Shown one piece after another: positions 16,771 to 25,068 of a stretch of 64,000 nucleotides of DNA (position 1 is its first letter; each line of letters opens with the position of its first letter). The translations under genes and the position numbers were made by a program. The DNA is taken from NCBI GenBank assembly GCA_021413845.1, contig JAIOPP010000059.1:1-64000 (forward strand), written 5' to 3'. The stretch comes from Planctomycetia bacterium (GTDB lineage Bacteria; Planctomycetota; Planctomycetia; Pirellulales; PNKZ01). The notes beneath the pieces were generated by a model. It did no database searches, was not told the origin of the DNA, and saw only the letters and a program-made list of their open reading frames with translations.

Positions 16771-16790
16771 AGCTCGATCGAGCTGTTTTA
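16771..16790. terminator. Possible shared hairpin between convergent genes
   Basis: The 14-base palindrome AGCTCGATCGAGCT (16771-16784) is followed by GTTTTA. It sits in the 19-base gap between two convergent stop codons. The stem can have few pairs once a loop is allowed, so terminator strength is doubtful. Confidence 0.25.
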
Positions 16791-17939
16791 CCGGACGTCT
16801 TGCGACAGCAGCCAATCTTCGAGCACGATCTGCTGCACGTAGGGAGCTCGCAACAGCGAAGCGCGCGTCGACAACAACGGCGCCAGCCACGCGCGGCGCG
16901 CGATCAACGAAACCGCTTGCTTGCTCCATTGATTGAGCCAGTTGCCTCCCATCTGCGCTCGCACGTTGTCGCTCAAGCGTTGAAACGTAGCGGGCAGCAA
17001 ATTGGGATCGGGACCGATATGCACGACAGTTTCGGCACCGCTAGCCAGGATCTCGCAGATGCCGTCCCACAAGCGCTGCGGCTTCTCCAGCCAAGCCACG
17101 ATGGTTTCCCGCGCGTTGTAATTGTTGTAGCTCAACTTACCGGTGACGAGCGAAACAATGTTCGGATGCGGTGCCGTCAGGCCTCCGCCGAGCGTGTGCA
17201 GAGCAAGACCCGCGCGCGCCGGTATGTTTCGCTCCCAAAGGATCGGCGTGTGCAACGGCGGCCACGCACCATCGGCTTTCCTCAGGTTCACGCGCTTCCC
17301 CAGGGCCGTCGGCACGCGCGCTTTGAACGTCGCCAGAGTCTCACGTTGGCCGAGCAGCAACACGGTGTTCGGCGACAGGTAAGACGAAACGGCGATGACG
17401 CCTTGGCCTTCCATGTTGACTTCGATGCAAAGCCGATGCACGGCCGCGAGGTCGAGTTCCGGCCCGCGTGAGAAGAGAATTCCCATCGAAAGATCATGGG
17501 CCAAGGCGGCGCAATCGCCCGCCAAACTCACCAGCGGCGGCAGCACCTGCTCGACGACGAACGTCCCGCCGGCGACGAGGGCCGTAATCTCGCCGAGACT
17601 GTAACCGAGCGATATCCGCGCGCCGCGATAATCGATGTCGAAAAACTGATCGAGTAATTCCAGCTGCGCCATCTCGGCGGCGATGATGAGCGCGATGTCT
17701 TCGGAAAACGAATCCAAGGTGCTCTCGCGCCGCGCCGCGACCCGCGCGACCAAGTCGGTCGCCCGATGCGTCGCTTCGGCATGAATCGTTCCGGCGAGCC
17801 TTAAGTGGCGTTCCACGATCGGCCCGTACGCCGGATGCGCGAGCAACTCCGGTGTCCGCCCCAGATTGGTCAGGTTGTAGCCGCGAAAAGCGAGCGCGGT
17901 CGAACCGATATGCTGCGTCCAAGTCGTCGGCATAGGCAC
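16788..17939 (-). CDS. FabD-like acyl (malonyl) transferase
   Basis: A 383-residue protein with the alpha/beta-hydrolase-like fold of malonyl-CoA:ACP transacylases. The nucleophile motif is GYSLGE with Ser114, where canonical enzymes read GHSLGE. A candidate catalytic His is His230 in PPLHTP, matching the FHSPLM region of FabD. The C-terminal part keeps VVHIGPDPNLLP, comparable with the late strand of FabD proteins. It is longer than standalone FabD (about 310 residues) and is not beside other fatty-acid genes, so it may load a different carrier protein or serve a special acyl chain. Its promoter region (156 bases) is shared with the H4MPT operon on the other strand. Confidence 0.68.
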   Translation of the reverse strand: MPMPTTWTQHIGSTALAFRGYNLTNLGRTPELLAHPAYGPIVERHLRLAGTIHAEATHRATDLVARVAARRESTLDSFSEDIALIIAAEMAQLELLDQFFDIDYRGARISLGYSLGEITALVAGGTFVVEQVLPPLVSLAGDCAALAHDLSMGILFSRGPELDLAAVHRLCIEVNMEGQGVIAVSSYLSPNTVLLLGQRETLATFKARVPTALGKRVNLRKADGAWPPLHTPILWERNIPARAGLALHTLGGGLTAPHPNIVSLVTGKLSYNNYNARETIVAWLEKPQRLWDGICEILASGAETVVHIGPDPNLLPATFQRLSDNVRAQMGGNWLNQWSKQAVSLIARRAWLAPLLSTRASLLRAPYVQQIVLEDWLLSQDVR

Positions 17940-18095: not shown

Positions 18096-18938
18096 ATGCC
18101 TTCCGCCGTGAATCACGAACTGACAGGCCGAACCGCCGTCGTCACAGGTTCTTCCAGCGGAATCGGACAGGCCATCGCTCTCGAACTTGCCGCCGCAGGC
18201 GCGGCCGTCATCGTGCATGGCCGCAGCAATCCGGAAGGGGCGGAAACGACTGCCGCCGCGATTCGCGCCGGCGGCGGAGCCGCTACCGTGCTGCTCGCCG
18301 ACTTGGCCGACGAAGCCGCTTCGACCGCGTTCGCCGACGCCGCCTGGAACTGGCGCACAGGACTAGACATTTGGGTCAACAATGCCGGCGTCGACGTCCT
18401 CACCGGCGACGCCGCGAAGTGGTCGTTCGATCGGAAGCTCGCCGCGCTCTGGCAAGTCGACGTCGCGGCGACCATCCGCCTCTCGCGCATCGTCGGCCCG
18501 CGCATGCGCGAACGCGGCAACGACGGCACGATCATCAACATCGGCTGGGACCAAGCCGAGACGGGCATGGCCGGCGACAGCGGCGAGATGTTCGCCGCCG
18601 TGAAGGGGGCCGTGATTGCGTTTACGCGCAGCCTCGCGCATTCGCTCGCTCCTCTAGTGCGTGTCAATTGCGTTGCGCCGGGCTGGATCAAAACCGAATG
18701 GGGGGACGACGCCGCCGACTATTGGCAGCGCCGCGCCATCGGCGAATCGCTGCGCGAGCGTTGGGGCGCGCCGCAAGATGTCGCGCGCGCCGTTCGCTTT
18801 CTCGCTTCCCCCGCGGCCGACTTCGTGACTGCGCACGTCTTGCCGGTCAACGGCGGACTCCGTCGCTCGGCGGCGTATCCAGGTTCTCCCAGTCATTCGG
18901 CCGCCGATCCATCGACGAACGATGGCCGCTCCTTTTAG
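18096..18938 (+). CDS. Short-chain dehydrogenase-like protein with degenerate active site
   Basis: About 280 residues from the Met at 18096; the longer frame from 17805 would overlap the opposite gene's N-terminus. The Rossmann fold is clear: TGSSSGIG for the cofactor, an arginine-containing turn HGRSNPEG after beta-2 suggesting NADP, and NNAG. The catalytic residues are altered. The usual Ser position reads NIGWDQ (Gly150-Trp151), and the YxxxK box reads FAAVK, with Phe166 in place of Tyr and Lys170 kept. The gene ends 21 bases before the DHPS-like gene and should be in its operon. A pteridine-reductase-like role in H4MPT synthesis is attractive by context but unproven. Confidence 0.82.
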   Translation: MPSAVNHELTGRTAVVTGSSSGIGQAIALELAAAGAAVIVHGRSNPEGAETTAAAIRAGGGAATVLLADLADEAASTAFADAAWNWRTGLDIWVNNAGVDVLTGDAAKWSFDRKLAALWQVDVAATIRLSRIVGPRMRERGNDGTIINIGWDQAETGMAGDSGEMFAAVKGAVIAFTRSLAHSLAPLVRVNCVAPGWIKTEWGDDAADYWQRRAIGESLRERWGAPQDVARAVRFLASPAADFVTAHVLPVNGGLRRSAAYPGSPSHSAADPSTNDGRSF

Positions 18939-18959
18939 CGCTCGCGGACTTAGCCTGCT

Positions 18960-20381
18960 ATGACGCGCGAGCATATTCAATTCGTTACCGGTCGCCTGGC
19001 CGAGTTCTCCTTACGCAAGATGCTTGAAGCGCTTGCGCCGCAAGTCGGCTTCGATTACACGATCGACGTTCTCGGCATCACGGTCGCCGCGTTGATGACT
19101 CCCGCATGGATCGCGAAACGGATTGCGCATGTTCCGGAGGCGCATCGTGTTTTGATTCCCGGCTATTGCGGCGGCGACATTTCCGTCATCGCGGCGGCTT
19201 GCGGCAAGCCGGTCGAGCGCGGTCCGAAAGATCTACGAGCGCTCCCCGCTTTTTTCGGTCGCAAGCCTTCGGCGATGGAAGACTACGGCAAGTACGACAT
19301 CGAGATCCTCGCCGAAATTAATCACGCTCCTCGTCTATCGCGGGCTCGAATACTGCAGATGGCGCACGACCTGAAAGCGTCGGGTGCCGATCTGATCGAC
19401 GTCGGCTGCGATCCCGGCGAGCCTTGGTCCGAGGTCGGCGACGTGGTTCACATGCTGCGCGAGGAAGGGTTTCGCGTTTCCATCGACAGCTTGAACCCCG
19501 CCGAGATCGGGCCGGCCGTTCGAGCCGGTGCCGAGTTGGTGCTCAGCGTCAATTCTTCCAACGCCGAGTGCGCCGCCGATTGGGGCTGCGAAGTCGTGAT
19601 CGTGCCCGACGATCCTCATCTGTTGACCGGCCTAGAAGCGACGATCGAGCGCGTCGCCGACGCCGGAGTTCCCCTTCGAATCGACGCGATTCTCGAGCCG
19701 ATCGGTTTCGGATTTGCGCAGAGTCTCGGGCGCTACCTCGACGTGCGACGCCGTTATCCCGACGCCGAGATGATGATGGGAATCGGCAACCTCACCGAAC
19801 TTACGGATGCCGATAGCGGGCCGATCAACGTGCTGCTGCTCGGTTTCTGTCAGGAGTTGGGAATCCGCAGCGTGCTGACGATGCAGGTCATCAACTGGGC
19901 GCGCACCAGCGTCAAGGAGTGCGATCTCGCGCGCCGGCTCGTGCGCTATGCCGTCGCGACGAAGAACTTGCCGAAGCGGGTCGATGAAAGCCTCGTCACG
20001 CTGCGCGATGCGAAGCTTTTTGAGTATGGTTCCGATCAACTCGACCAACTCGCCGCGGAAATTCGAGACGACAACTATCGCATCTTCGCCGAGCAAGGAG
20101 AGTTGCACGTGCTCGCGGCCGGCGCACATCGCCACGGCGTCGACCCATTCGATCTGTTCGAGGAAATGACCGCGGCACGGCGCAAACCGCTCGAACCTTC
20201 GCATGCTTTTTATCTCGGCTATGAAATGGCGAAGGCCATGACGGCGCTCACGCTCGGCAAGGAATATCGCCAAGACCAAGCGCTCGATTGGGGGTTTCTT
20301 ACGAAGCCGGAAGAGAGCCATCGGGAGCGGAAGCGCCGTCGCAGCGAAGAAGCCTCGGGCAATGAGGAGCCCGAGCGTTGA
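18960..20381 (+). CDS. Dihydropteroate synthase-like protein of H4MPT biosynthesis
   Basis: A 473-residue protein. Residues 1-110 form an extra N-terminal domain (FVTGRLAEFSLRKMLEALAP, LIPGYCGGDISVI) seen in planctomycete and methylotroph relatives. Residues about 120-400 are a pterin-binding TIM barrel like dihydropteroate synthase (LKASGADLIDVGCDPGEPW, FRVSIDSLNPAEIGPAV, LVLSVNSSN). The tail is Arg/Glu rich. In H4MPT synthesis a DHPS-like enzyme joins the pterin pyrophosphate to beta-ribofuranosylaminobenzene phosphate rather than to p-aminobenzoate, and beta-RFAP synthase is encoded in the same operon. Its TGA overlaps the TTG start of pabB, indicating translational coupling. Confidence 0.85.
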   Translation: MTREHIQFVTGRLAEFSLRKMLEALAPQVGFDYTIDVLGITVAALMTPAWIAKRIAHVPEAHRVLIPGYCGGDISVIAAACGKPVERGPKDLRALPAFFGRKPSAMEDYGKYDIEILAEINHAPRLSRARILQMAHDLKASGADLIDVGCDPGEPWSEVGDVVHMLREEGFRVSIDSLNPAEIGPAVRAGAELVLSVNSSNAECAADWGCEVVIVPDDPHLLTGLEATIERVADAGVPLRIDAILEPIGFGFAQSLGRYLDVRRRYPDAEMMMGIGNLTELTDADSGPINVLLLGFCQELGIRSVLTMQVINWARTSVKECDLARRLVRYAVATKNLPKRVDESLVTLRDAKLFEYGSDQLDQLAAEIRDDNYRIFAEQGELHVLAAGAHRHGVDPFDLFEEMTAARRKPLEPSHAFYLGYEMAKAMTALTLGKEYRQDQALDWGFLTKPEESHRERKRRRSEEASGNEEPER

Positions 20382-21835
20382 CTTCCTTCGACACGCAGCG
20401 TCCTCACGATGTCGCCGAGTTTCCACTCGTGGAAGAATTACTTCCCCCTCCCGATCCGGAAGTGGCGTTTCTTCGTTTCGCGGCGCTTCGACATTGCGTT
20501 TTTTTCGATAGCGCGCGGCGCGATCCGAAGCTCGGCCGCTATTCGTTCCTCGCTGCCGAGCCGTTCGAATTCGTCAGCAAGACCGCCGAAGATACCGATG
20601 CGATCGGCGCGCTCCGGGCCTCGCTCGCGCGCTACCCCGCGGTTCGCCGGCCCGAATTGCCGCCGTTTCAGGCCGGTGCCGCGGCGATGCTGAGTTACGA
20701 ACTCGGGCGACAATTGGAAACGCTGCCGACTGCCGCGATCGACGAGTTCTCCTCTCCCGCACTCGCGTTCGGGCTCTACGATACGGTCGTCGCCTGGGAC
20801 CACGAGCGAAACCAAGCGTGGCTGATCTCGCAAGGCTTTCCGGAAATCGATCTCGCGGCCCGACGGCAACGAGCGGAACAAAGGATACGGTACTTTCGCG
20901 ACATCTTAGCCGCACCGCTTCCGAACCCGGCGAGCGATCTGCCGCCGACCGAACACGCTCGAACCGCGTACATCGGCGCGGCGAATCTAGCGCCGCAGTT
21001 TCCCATGTCTGCGATGCCGGGCCTGACGAGCAACATGAGCGCCTCCGGCTATATCGAGGCCGTGCGACGTGCGATCGAATACATTCGCGCCGGCGATATC
21101 TTTCAAGTCAACCTTGCGCAGCGTTTGCTCTATCCGGCCGCCGATGACACGCGAAGCCTGTATCTAAGGCTCCGGCGGCGTAACCCAGCCACGTTCGCCG
21201 GCTATTTCGACTGGGGGCCTTCGCAAATCGCCAGCGCTTCGCCGGAGCGATTCTTGCGCGTCGTCGACCGGCACGTCGAGACACGCCCGATCAAAGGGAC
21301 ACGGCTTCGTACCTCGTTGCCGGAAGCCGATTTCTACTCCGCGCTCGAGCTCATGGAAAGCGAGAAAGATCGGGCCGAAAACGTGATGATCGTCGACCTC
21401 CTGCGCAACGATCTCTCGCGGGTTTGCACCGACGACAGCGTGTTTGTGTCGCAACTTTGCAAACTGGAGAGCTACGAATACGTGCAGCATTTGGTATCTT
21501 CCGTGGAAGGGTTGTTGCGGCCCGAGCATGACGCGCTCGATGCTTTAATCGCTTCGTTTCCGGGCGGATCGATCACCGGTGCGCCGAAGATTCGCGCGAT
21601 GCAGATCATCGCGGAACTAGAGCCGACGGCTCGCGGCCCCTATTGCGGTTCGCTCGCCTACTTTAGTTTCGACGGCTCGATGGACGCCAGCATTCTCATC
21701 CGTACGATTACCGCCGGCGGCGGCTGGTGGCAGGCTCCGGTCGGTGGAGGAATTACCTCGCATAGCGATCCCGCGCGAGAATACGAAGAGACGTGGCACA
21801 AGGCCGAGGGAATGTTGCGAGCTTTTAAGCCTTAG
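20378..21835 (+). CDS. pabB: Aminodeoxychorismate synthase component I
   Basis: A 485-residue chorismate-binding enzyme starting at TTG in a TTGA overlap with the preceding gene. The PIKGTR motif near residue 304 contains the lysine typical of PabB, where anthranilate synthase TrpE has alanine (PIAGTR); this separates it from TrpE. Other motifs are GDIFQVNLAQR, ENVMIVDLLRNDLSRVC and GGSITGAPKIRAMQII (about residue 395). With PabA it amidates chorismate to 4-amino-4-deoxychorismate, the precursor of p-aminobenzoate. In this operon the p-aminobenzoate is most simply a substrate of beta-RFAP synthase, though it also serves folate. Confidence 0.92.
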   Translation: MTSFDTQRPHDVAEFPLVEELLPPPDPEVAFLRFAALRHCVFFDSARRDPKLGRYSFLAAEPFEFVSKTAEDTDAIGALRASLARYPAVRRPELPPFQAGAAAMLSYELGRQLETLPTAAIDEFSSPALAFGLYDTVVAWDHERNQAWLISQGFPEIDLAARRQRAEQRIRYFRDILAAPLPNPASDLPPTEHARTAYIGAANLAPQFPMSAMPGLTSNMSASGYIEAVRRAIEYIRAGDIFQVNLAQRLLYPAADDTRSLYLRLRRRNPATFAGYFDWGPSQIASASPERFLRVVDRHVETRPIKGTRLRTSLPEADFYSALELMESEKDRAENVMIVDLLRNDLSRVCTDDSVFVSQLCKLESYEYVQHLVSSVEGLLRPEHDALDALIASFPGGSITGAPKIRAMQIIAELEPTARGPYCGSLAYFSFDGSMDASILIRTITAGGGWWQAPVGGGITSHSDPAREYEETWHKAEGMLRAFKP

Positions 21836-21861
21836 GCTCCCCTCCAGACAACGGCGTTCGC

Positions 21862-22524
21862 ATGATTCTGCTCATCGACAACTACGACAGCTTCGTACAC
21901 AACCTCGCGCGTTACGTGCGTCGGCTCGGCAGCGACACGCAAGTCGTGCGAAACGATGCCGTCGACGTCGCGGCGATTCGCCGCTTGCGCCCTTGCGCCA
22001 TCATTCTTTCGCCGGGCCCTTGCACACCGCAGCAAGCCGGTTGCACGTTGGAGGTCGTACGCGAGTTGGCAGGCGAAGTTCCGATCTTAGGAATCTGCCT
22101 CGGGCATCAAGCGATCGCCGAGGTGTTCGGCGGGAAGGTCGTCAGGTCGCCGGTGCCGGTACATGGCCGGACGGCGAACATCACACACGACGGACGACGG
22201 CTTTTCGCCGGGCTCCCCTCGCCCCTTACGGTTTGCCGCTACCACTCCCTCTGCGCCGAAGCCGCAACGCTCCCGAAATCGCTCCGCGCCACGGCCCATG
22301 CGCCGGACGGCGTCGTCATGGCCGTCGAGCATGAAAGCCTGCCGGTCTTCGGCGTGCAGTTTCATCCGGAGTCGGTTCTGACCGAGGGAGGCTATCGATT
22401 GTTGGCTAATTTTTGCTCATTGGCCGGATTACCGATTTCCGCAACACTTCCGACGTTGAACGAGGAGCGTTTGCTGGTGAAAATCGAAGAACGCCCGCTG
22501 CCGAGCTCTCCCGTCACGTTTTAA
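21862..22524 (+). CDS. pabA: Aminodeoxychorismate synthase glutamine amidotransferase
   Basis: A 220-residue class I glutamine amidotransferase. The catalytic triad is visible: Cys79 in GICLGHQ, and His and Glu in VQFHPES (about residue 170). The oxyanion region is SPGPCTP. It supplies ammonia to the PabB protein encoded 26 bases upstream. A shared role with anthranilate synthase cannot be excluded, because PabA and TrpG are not distinguishable by motif. The C-terminal extension after the amidotransferase fold is about 30 residues (LLVKIEERPLPSS). Confidence 0.92.
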   Translation: MILLIDNYDSFVHNLARYVRRLGSDTQVVRNDAVDVAAIRRLRPCAIILSPGPCTPQQAGCTLEVVRELAGEVPILGICLGHQAIAEVFGGKVVRSPVPVHGRTANITHDGRRLFAGLPSPLTVCRYHSLCAEAATLPKSLRATAHAPDGVVMAVEHESLPVFGVQFHPESVLTEGGYRLLANFCSLAGLPISATLPTLNEERLLVKIEERPLPSSPVTF

Positions 22525-22550
22525 TCCTTCGCAAGCAACCCTGAGTTCGC

Positions 22551-23174
22551 ATGATCCTCGAAGGCCTGATGACGACGATCAACGCCGACGGCACGCCGAA
22601 CGTGTCGCCGATGGGTCCGCGCGTCGATCTCGAATTGAAGACGTTCGTCTTACGGCCGTTTCAAACCTCGACCACCTATCGCAACGTCAAGCGTTCGGGC
22701 GTCGGTGTGTTCCACGTGACCGACGACGTCGAGCTGCTGGCGCGCGCCGCCGTCGGCAAGCTCTCACCGTTGCCGCCGCTGGAGAAAGCCGACGCCGTCG
22801 AAGGATTCATTCTCAGCGGCGCGTGCCGTTGGTTCGCCTTGCGCGTCGAATCGCTCGACGATTCCGCCCCGCGCACGACGATCACGATGCGGGCCGTCGC
22901 TAGCGGAACGCTGCGCGATTTCTTCGGGTTGAATCGCGCGAAGCACGCCGTCGTCGAAGGGGCGATCCTAGCCACACGGCTGCATCTACTCTCCAAAGCC
23001 GAGATCTTAAGACAATTCGCCGACTTGAAACCGCTGGTCGAAAAAACCGGCGGCGAGGCGGAACATCGGGCCTTCGCCTTCTTGGAACGGTTCATCCGCG
23101 AGGCCGACGACGGAGTAGCTCCGCTCAACGACCTTGAGCGCAGCGCCGACCGGACCGAGGTCGCGCATGACTGA
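22551..23174 (+). CDS. DUF447-family protein, H4MPT-linked
   Basis: A 207-residue protein. The opening ILEGLMTTINADGTPNVSPMGPRVD and the phrase LRPFQTSTTYRNVKRSGVGVFHVTDDVELLARAA match the DUF447 family, found in archaea and in bacteria with H4MPT genes. The family is thought to adopt an FMN-binding split-barrel fold, and the NVSPMGP start resembles flavin-reductase-like proteins. The function is unassigned; a flavin-dependent step in H4MPT synthesis is possible. Its last eight bases overlap the start of the beta-RFAP synthase gene, so the two are translated together. Confidence 0.82.
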   Translation: MILEGLMTTINADGTPNVSPMGPRVDLELKTFVLRPFQTSTTYRNVKRSGVGVFHVTDDVELLARAAVGKLSPLPPLEKADAVEGFILSGACRWFALRVESLDDSAPRTTITMRAVASGTLRDFFGLNRAKHAVVEGAILATRLHLLSKAEILRQFADLKPLVEKTGGEAEHRAFAFLERFIREADDGVAPLNDLERSADRTEVAHD

Positions 23175-24159
23175 TAAGCTTACGAGCGGCAAGCTTCCGG
23201 ACGGCAAGGAAGTCACCGTTATCGCGCCGAGCCGATTGCACTTCGGTATGTTTTCGTTCGGCGTGCCCGAATCGCGACAGTTCGGCGGCGTAGGGGTGAT
23301 GATCGATCAACCGGTGACGAGCTTGCGCATCGAACCGGCAAGCGTCGACGAATGCGTGGGAACACATGCGCAGCGGCTCCGTCAAACACTCGAGATCGTG
23401 CGGCGATCGGCCTGGGGCTCCGCCGTTCCTCCGTGCCGACTTTCGCTCAGAGCCGCGCCGAGATCGCACGTCGGTCTGGGAAGCGGAACGCAAACGGCGC
23501 TCGCCGTCGTGGCGGGCTTGCGCGCTTTCGCGAAGCTCCCGCCGCTCGACGCGCTCGAGCTCGGCGAAACCTCGGGGCGCGCGAAACGCTCGTCCGTCGG
23601 TCTGCACGGGTTTCTCAACGGCGGCTTGATCGTCGAAGCGGGGAAGCTCCCGCAGGAGAAAGTGGCGCCGCTCTTAGCGCAAACCGCGGTGCCCGGCAAT
23701 TGGCGGTTCGTGCTGATCTGCCCGCGCCACAAAGAGGGCCTGTCGGGAGAAACGGAACGGGCTGCGTTCGCCGCGCTGCCGCCGGTGCCGACCGCGATTA
23801 CCGAAGAACTGCAGCGAATCGCCTTAGACCAGTTGGTGCCCGCCGCGCGGCACTCCGACTTCGCGACGTTCGCCGAAGGGCTCTATCGGTTCGGCCTCGC
23901 GGCCGGCCAATGCTTCAAAAGTCATCAAGCCGGCGTCTATGCGACGGAGCAACTCGCGCGGCTCGTCGAGCGCGTGCGAGGCGCCGGAGTGCGCGGAGTC
24001 GGGCAGTCGTCGTGGGGGCCGACGCTCTTTTCTTTGCATCCCTCGGTCGACGCCGCCGAACGCTTTCTCGACGATCGCACGCTCTGGCCCGATGCGTATG
24101 AATACGACTTCACGATCGCGCGGCCGAGCCCTGCGGGGGCGGACATTCACACGGTCTAG
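23167..24159 (+). CDS. mptG: Beta-ribofuranosylaminobenzene 5'-phosphate synthase
   Basis: About 330 residues from the ATG at 23167, inside the last codons of the DUF447 gene (ATGACTGA overlap). It is a GHMP-kinase-fold protein, with VIAPSRLHFGMFSFG at the N-terminus, the phosphate-binding-like loop SHVGLGSGTQTALAV near residue 100 and the C-terminal GVRGVGQSSWGPTLF. In H4MPT synthesis this enzyme condenses p-aminobenzoate with PRPP, releasing CO2 and pyrophosphate; it commits p-aminobenzoate to the C1 carrier. It is the most diagnostic gene of the operon and its last member. Confidence 0.9.
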   Translation: MTDKLTSGKLPDGKEVTVIAPSRLHFGMFSFGVPESRQFGGVGVMIDQPVTSLRIEPASVDECVGTHAQRLRQTLEIVRRSAWGSAVPPCRLSLRAAPRSHVGLGSGTQTALAVVAGLRAFAKLPPLDALELGETSGRAKRSSVGLHGFLNGGLIVEAGKLPQEKVAPLLAQTAVPGNWRFVLICPRHKEGLSGETERAAFAALPPVPTAITEELQRIALDQLVPAARHSDFATFAEGLYRFGLAAGQCFKSHQAGVYATEQLARLVERVRGAGVRGVGQSSWGPTLFSLHPSVDAAERFLDDRTLWPDAYEYDFTIARPSPAGADIHTV

Positions 24160-24174: not shown

Positions 24175-25068
24175 CTACTTCGCAGCCGGCGCGGCGGTCT
24201 TTTCCGGGTCCGATTTGCGCCACAGCCATTCGAGCGATTCCGGCAAGAGCGCGCCTCCTTGCTTGCCGTTGTGTCCGCCGTCGCCGAACTCGAAGCGGTA
24301 GTCGTAGCCCTTATATTTCAATGCCGCCGCCATTTGCTGATTCGCCAGGGGCCAGTTGCCGTGCTCGTTGTCGAGATCGCCGGAGCCGTCTTGCAGGAAG
24401 GCGCGGATCGGTTTTCGCTCCGTCTTACGGATCATCGCTTCGTAGTTGTGGCCTCCGCGAATGTTCGTGAAGCTGCCGACATGGCTCAGCACTTTGCGAA
24501 ACGCGTCGGGCCTTTGCCAAGCGACCGTAAACGCGCAGATGCCGCCGGAGCTGATCCCGCAGATCGCGCGCTGGTCGGGATCGGTCGTCAAGTTGTACGA
24601 CTTGCCGACTTCCGGCAGCATTTCTTCCAGCAATAGCCGAGCATACTGATCGCTCAACGTATCGTATTCGAAGCTCCGATTGCGAATCGGCTGGCTCTTC
24701 GGATCCTTCGCAGGCACATTACCGGGGTTGATGAAGATGCCGATCGTGACGGGCATTTTCTTTTGATGGATCAGGTTGTCGAACACGATCGTCGAGCGGA
24801 ATTGTCCCTTCTCGTTCAGATAGCTCTGACCGTCTTGAAACACCATCACGCTCGCCGGCTTCGCGGCATCGTACTGCGCCGGAACGTAGACCCAATAGTC
24901 GCGCACGGTGCCGGGGAAGACCTCGCTCTTCCATTCGTGTTGCGTCACTTTCCCTTGCGGCACGTCGGCTTGGCGCTGCGAATCGGGCCCCAGCTGATAG
25001 TCGTCGGCGGCACGTGCGACATCGACGGCCACGATCAAAGCAAGAGCGACGACAAGGCGGTAAAACAT
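24175..25068 (-). CDS. Secreted esterase (enterochelin-esterase-like)
   Basis: A 297-residue exported alpha/beta hydrolase. The signal peptide is [20 protein letters not shown]. The mature part has [10 protein letters not shown], then [12 protein letters not shown] as the oxyanion region, the nucleophile elbow [11 protein letters not shown] (Ser near residue 173), a candidate Asp in QDGSGDLDN, and the catalytic His in FGDGGHNG. The family cleaves ester bonds of siderophores, xylan acetyl groups or other small esters; the substrate cannot be told here. It follows the DUF6807 gene on the same strand with a 52-base gap. Confidence 0.83.

Follow-up and report, generated by a model that had tools for sequence, protein, structure and literature searches.

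The window, that is, the whole stretch of 64,000 nucleotides analysed here, carries six genes on the forward strand between positions 18096 and 24159, which follow one another in its map of open reading frames from an SDR-family reductase gene (SDR) to a beta-RFAP synthase homologue (Table 1). The gaps measured 21 nt between the SDR and the DHPS-like gene and 26 nt both between pabB and pabA and between pabA and the DUF447 gene. The remaining junctions were overlaps, of 4 nt between the DHPS-like gene and pabB, and of 41 nt between the DUF447 and beta-RFAP synthase genes when the latter is read from its TTG start, or 8 nt from the ATG at 23167. The compact run of six co-directional genes with gaps of at most 27 nt described in the original prediction was thus confirmed. 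Since the neighbouring genes on both sides (16788-17939 and 24175-25068) are encoded on the minus strand, the six-gene unit is bounded, and its spacing and conserved order suggest that it is transcribed as one unit. A promoter scan did not find a sigma-70-like site, and terminator-like matches showed no excess over shuffled sequences. The minus-strand gene divergent from the SDR (16788-17939) codes for a 383-aa FabD-like protein (27 bits against TIGR00128, with no Pfam match), homologues of which appeared in 47 of the planctomycete loci that were fetched. These homologues frequently lay upstream of the SDR gene in divergent orientation, including at loci where the SDR gene has no DHPS-like neighbour.

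Table 1. Genes of the six-gene operon and substituted active-site positions of the SDR.
Feature	Position	Strand	Basis and remarks
SDR-family reductase, 280 aa	18096..18938	+	Profile, alignment; dihydropterin reductase role proposed
SDR residue D122, in place of canonical catalytic Asn	codon 18459..18461	+	Alignment
SDR residues W151-D152, catalytic Ser position	codons 18546..18551	+	Alignment
SDR residue F166, in place of catalytic Tyr	codon 18591..18593	+	Alignment
DHPS-like protein (DUF6513 + Pterin_bind + PterinBD-DUF4346), TIGR00284-like	18960..20381	+	Profiles; H4MPT-branch condensing enzyme proposed
pabB, aminodeoxychorismate (ADC) synthase component I	20378..21835	+	TTG start; profiles, PIKGT signature
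pabA/trpG-type glutamine amidotransferase, component II	21862..22524	+	TIGR00566, 215 bits
DUF447 protein, split-barrel flavoprotein relative	22551..23174	+	Profiles
beta-RFAP synthase homologue, GHMP superfamily; first committed step of H4MPT synthesis	23134..24159	+	Profiles

Regarding the protein families, the SDR matched PF13561 with 148 bits and PabB the Pfam profile Chorismate_bind with 281 bits, while the score of PabA lay above the TIGR00566 cut-off of 121. The DHPS-like protein matched DUF6513 (93 bits) and Pterin_bind (31 bits), with PterinBD-DUF4346 also present, and obtained 166 bits against TIGR00284, under the NCBIfam trusted cut-off of 257; a PDB sequence search with it returned matches only at E ~0.2. 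For the beta-RFAP synthase homologue, 107 bits were reached against NF040726 (cut-off 328) and 81 bits against TIGR00144 (cut-off 113.5), this being by far its best family, and its solved relatives included the ForT-PRPP complex and PDB entries named RFAP synthase. Because both scores are lower than the NCBIfam trusted cut-offs, the terms 'DHPS-like' and 'homologue' are used here. The profile searches support the predicted assignment of these two proteins, with scores that fall short of those cut-offs. In the RFAP synthase of Methanothermobacter, the conserved residues R26 and D19 have been linked to the binding of p-aminobenzoate (pABA) (PMC6787355). As judged by eye in an alignment with no archaeal sequence, R48 would correspond to R26, being variable in the relatives, and S41 occupies the position of D19. 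Finally, the DUF447 protein matched DUF447_N (71 bits) and DUF447_C (48 bits) and may be an H4MPT enzyme. Proteins of this kind are shared with archaea, have relatives in the PDB and weakly resemble PPOX-class flavin/F420 split-barrel proteins. Their gene was also kept beside that of beta-RFAP synthase in loci without nearby pabAB and SDR (L078, L079 and L086).

The signature PIKGT was found in the PabB of the window and in all 17 relatives examined, and PLAGT in the other chorismate enzyme of the genome. The lysine of this signature marks ADC synthase, anthranilate synthase having alanine at the same position. A profile search of the contigs revealed exactly two chorismate-binding enzymes in the whole genome, the pabB of the window being the only ADC synthase gene found. 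Outside the operon, a canonical folP was located on contig C109 and folK on contig C94. As the genome has a single PabB, its pABA must also feed folate, which rules out a supply dedicated to H4MPT; what remains of the proposal that the operon makes its own pABA is the presence of a true ADC synthase within it. Moreover, three class-IV aminotransferases were detected, all on other contigs, and two of them were scanned with profiles (the one on contig C99 being left out), the best ADC-lyase score falling far below the cut-off. The genome-wide search for pabC that had been advised thus provided three class-IV aminotransferases and no unambiguous ADC lyase. The linkage of pabAB to the other genes suggests that pABA is the aromatic precursor of H4MPT in these bacteria.

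Genome-wide profile searches located two fae genes, an mtdB adjoining one of them, mch and two fhcD genes. The mtdB product (methylene-H4MPT dehydrogenase) obtained 110 bits against PF09176, and both fhcD genes scored over the NCBIfam cut-off. All these matches, like those for pabC, lay on other contigs, and the absence of pabC and C1-transfer genes noted earlier for the window was borne out for the whole contig. The cofactor thus has users elsewhere in the genome, as had been anticipated, and these enzymes, together with the family profiles, support the reading of the locus as an H4MPT biosynthesis operon.

The two fae paralogues are on contigs C84 (L012, 5522-9258) and C64 (L013, 10914-11501). 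One adjoins mtdB, near an ATP-grasp gene, and the other, with a Lys-rich N-terminus, lies apart from other C1 genes. The only methenyl-H4MPT cyclohydrolase of the genome (mch, contig C34; L177, 1660-16956) lies in frame at the C-terminus of a 5098-aa reading frame for a hybrid polyketide/peptide synthetase, with the domain order AMP-binding, KS, AT, DH, KR, condensation, AMP-binding, PP, thioester reductase and MCH, and is followed by a RimK-like ATP-grasp gene. A stand-alone mch precedes the same ATP-grasp gene in genome G194 (L059). The joining of mch to the synthetase may be either a real fusion or an artefact of assembly or frame.

The comparison of gene order across planctomycetes called for in the original prediction showed the full six-gene order in 11 of 40 genomes of the class sampled around beta-RFAP synthase, with subsets of it in others, and in 20 of 80 named planctomycete loci, which were fetched by the SDR and represent the best 80 of 537 relatives. 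Among those of the best 80 loci with at least 6.5 kb downstream of the SDR, the full order was the commonest arrangement (16 loci). The closest named relatives were planctomycete MAGs; in particular, Pirellula sp. PB1.007 (L098) had the same operon, with an SDR ~75% identical, and these names point to a Pirellulales-like lineage. Orthologues of the SDR were also present in the cultured species Bythopirellula polymerisocia (L146) and Lacipirellula limnantheis (L139). Since the complete order recurs across sampled genomes and named loci, the arrangement is not a matter of chance. The embedding of pabAB, initially regarded as the distinctive point, is common across the order and not peculiar to one genome, the SDR being more informative.

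Canonical folate operons, such as that of Bacillus subtilis, carry pab genes. They resemble the present operon in combining pabA and pabB with a DHPS-type gene; however, here the DHPS-type gene is a TIGR00284-like paralogue, its partner is beta-RFAP synthase, and neither pabC nor folK is included. H4MPT-linked genes in planctomycetes were already known (PMC5020050), and the H4MPT islands of methylotrophic proteobacteria and planctomycetes described by Chistoserdova and co-workers (PMC5020050) likewise bring C1-transfer enzymes and cofactor synthesis genes together in a bacterium. In contrast to these islands, the operon for cofactor synthesis includes pabAB and a special SDR here, with the C1-transfer genes dispersed over other contigs. 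The operon is a conserved planctomycete arrangement that adds coupled pABA synthesis to the H4MPT gene islands known so far. A literature search returned nothing direct on the six-gene operon, on DUF447 in an operon context or on the ribitol-forming step.

The SDR was aligned to canonical SDRs from the same loci, which keep the catalytic tetrad N, S, Y, K. At these positions the SDR has D122, W151, F166 and K170, as well as an extra Asp at 152 and a loop two residues longer. Of 110 aligned family members, 109 had D122, 110 W151, 109 D152, 108 F166 and 110 K170, so the replacements are conserved to the degree seen in a functional active site. Furthermore, the cofactor motif is TGSSSGIG and the conserved loop reads WDQ..GM.GDSGE. 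A different loop, W[DG][GA]...G[IM]ETD..Q, was found at four loci where the SDR is beside pabB only (L157, L175, L178 and L179, of which L178 and L179 belong to genomes scored without beta-RFAP synthase), with D122, W151, F166 and K170 unchanged; the likewise pabB-only locus L180 kept the usual loop. This change may mark a switch of substrate, and it was counted as one event because the four loci probably belong to one lineage. The nearest proteins by sequence were classical SDRs, FabG-like and hydroxysteroid dehydrogenases, PTR1/FolM not being among the best 60 matches. The predicted structure (pLDDT 90.5) had an ordinary SDR fold resembling hundreds of classical SDRs about equally, and the absence of PTR1/FolM from the matches listed excludes nothing. 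Placing the SDR with PTR1/FolM on structural grounds led nowhere for the same reason, and the modelled fold alone does not decide between substrates.

Orthologues of the SDR (E ≤1e-45) were present in 277 of the 297 genomes of the class, and beta-RFAP synthase in the same number, some absences stemming from incomplete MAGs. Both were missing in 11 genomes versus ~1.3 expected (Fisher P = 6.6e-10, kinship ignored). The SDR was kept in 9 of the 20 genomes scored without beta-RFAP synthase, some of them nearly complete, and is thus not confined to H4MPT; conversely, it was missing in nine genomes with beta-RFAP synthase, two of which were at least 99% complete (G039 and G224). In three of the genomes scored without beta-RFAP synthase (G059, G266 and G170), the SDR directly preceded pabB with no DHPS-like gene, and such pairs rule out a strictly H4MPT-only role. 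Among 60 genomes compared for DHFR, 20 had a strong match, and 19 of these kept the SDR, as did 38 of the 40 lacking one; since DHFR-bearing genomes keep it, the SDR is not a simple stand-in for DHFR, and it tracks beta-RFAP synthase more closely than the absence of DHFR. In the genome of the operon, profile searches found no DHFR and no match to the AfpA-type dihydromethanopterin reductase (TIGR02699), for which 0 of 60 class genomes scored over the cut-off. Two nearly complete genomes (G011 and G043) had neither SDR nor beta-RFAP synthase, DHFR or a convincing AfpA match, so there must be at least one other dihydrofolate reductase.

Outside the operon, the contexts of the SDR all concern pterin and p-aminobenzoate. 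At two loci (L145 and L168), a single protein was composed of an N-terminal HPPK (FolK) domain (~6-135) and the SDR (~172-411) according to Pfam, and the same fusion was recognized by motif at two others (L156 and L163). FolK was matched in 28 genomes of families f18 and f21, each time once and in a frame of 408-568 aa, and the SDR came directly after FolK in the six of six genomes with both positions listed. Moreover, the SDR was beside pabB without a DHPS-like or beta-RFAP synthase gene at L178, L179 and L180, and adjoined pabB only at L157 and L175. The SDR loci without a DHPS-like gene nearby had no fae, mtdB or mch neighbour in common.

Taken together, the genomics and the residue chemistry lead us to lean, if only just, towards a single unit linking pABA synthesis to H4MPT steps, in which the SDR would fill the vacant place of dihydropterin reductase, with dihydromethanopterin and probably dihydrofolate as its substrates. 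In this scheme, PabAB would form aminodeoxychorismate, which a lyase encoded outside the operon would convert into pABA; beta-RFAP synthase would join pABA and PRPP with loss of CO2, and the DHPS-like enzyme would condense the product with the pterin pyrophosphate from FolK, encoded elsewhere. The last step, from dihydromethanopterin to H4MPT, would fall to the SDR, which in genomes lacking DHFR would probably reduce dihydrofolate to H4F as well. An SDR with these substrates would account for most of its distribution. Not accounted for are G011 and G043, in which SDR, beta-RFAP synthase and DHFR are all absent, and the nine genomes with beta-RFAP synthase and no SDR match.

As to chemistry, PTR1 has an Asp-Tyr-Lys triad, in which Tyr donates the proton in the first step; in the second step, from the dihydro to the tetrahydro form, the proton comes from activated water, as it does with DHFR (PMC1618733). 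With water as the proton source of that step, the Tyr donor could be lost in the SDR; Lys170 would hold NADPH and water would give the proton, in the manner of this DHFR-like step of pteridine reductase 1 (PTR1). The retention of Lys and loss of Tyr would fit a dihydro-to-tetrahydro specialist. With PTR1/FolM (PMC1618733, PMC1971073) the SDR shares the fold, an invariant Lys and an active-site Asp, as well as the proposed reduction of a dihydropterin with NADPH. However, PTR1/FolM have the motif TGX3RXG in place of TGX3GXG (PMC1971073), unlike the TGSSSGIG of the SDR; the SDR family replaces the triad Tyr (PMC1618733) by Phe in 108 of 110 members, with Lys kept and an Asp after the Ser position, and the gene contexts also differ. 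The dihydromethanopterin reductases DmrA and AfpA/DmrB/DmrX (PMC6193120) catalyse the last H4MPT step proposed here for the SDR, but DmrA is DHFR-like and AfpA belongs to an FMN flavoprotein family, both being unrelated to the SDR.

Other explanations were weighed against this dihydropterin reductase. The SDR could be a replacement dihydrofolate reductase serving folate only, placed in the operon because pabAB is there and without part in H4MPT synthesis, which we regard as unlikely. The genome without DHFR, the FolK fusion in relatives and the SDR genes beside pabB at L178, L179 and L180, and also at L157 and L175, would agree with such a function. However, it is disfavoured by the DHFR-bearing genomes that keep the SDR, unexpected for a mere replacement, and by the loss of the SDR tracking that of beta-RFAP synthase; moreover, the loop is altered at the pabB-only loci L157, L175, L178 and L179 around a constant tetrad, as if substrate contacts differed without H4MPT. 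It is quite improbable that the SDR performs another reduction of H4MPT synthesis, in which the ribofuranose ring is opened to give the 1-deoxyribitol chain, with the final dihydropterin step left to, for example, the DUF447 flavoprotein relative. To our knowledge, that ring-opening reduction has no assigned enzyme, DUF447 has relatives in the PDB and archaea, and the co-occurrence with beta-RFAP synthase would fit equally well; yet the loss of the Tyr and Ser acid catalysts argues against carbonyl or sugar chemistry, and the FolK fusion and the presence of the SDR without beta-RFAP synthase point to a pterin or folate part.

An essentially folate/pABA operon, in which the DHPS-like protein and the beta-RFAP synthase homologue do something else, appears very improbable. 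Both proteins score under the trusted cut-offs, and there is a precedent in the haloarchaeal homologue HVO_2628, for which catalysis of the RFAP reaction is considered improbable (PMC8305020). Unlike in haloarchaea, however, two fae, mtdB, mch and two fhcD are found here as users needing H4MPT, and a separate canonical folP exists in the genome. Finally, hardly any credence is given to a catalytically dead subunit that stabilizes or regulates the pathway: although three of the four tetrad residues are replaced, the replacements are near-invariant, the family retains Lys170 and its NADP-binding motif, and the loop shows strong conservation, a pattern of an active enzyme with altered chemistry.

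The dihydropterin reductase reading bears on two gaps. The enzyme of planctomycetes for the final reduction to H4MPT is unassigned (PMC5020050): AfpA has been reported as unrecognized in them, DmrA being described as its replacement in Methylobacterium (PMC5020050), and the planctomycete DHFR homologues of one tree all grouped with DfrA, not DmrA (PMC6193120). Furthermore, many bacteria have no recognizable dihydrofolate reductase, the responsible genes being stated as unidentified (PMC1971073). More tentatively, and with less confidence than in the role within the operon, SDRs with the D-W-F-K tetrad might constitute a hitherto unrecognized class of dihydropterin reductases that differs from PTR1/FolM by its motif and from DHFR, DmrA and AfpA by its protein family. 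Such a class would take the place of dihydromethanopterin reductase in planctomycetes and of dihydrofolate reductase in those of them without DHFR, the loop changes marking the switch of substrate. How H4MPT-linked C1 metabolism originated is debated, and planctomycetes hold a key place in that discussion. Specialist attention is best directed at the SDR family. The operon, the fusion to FolK and the substituted active site together offer one testable candidate for both reductase gaps.
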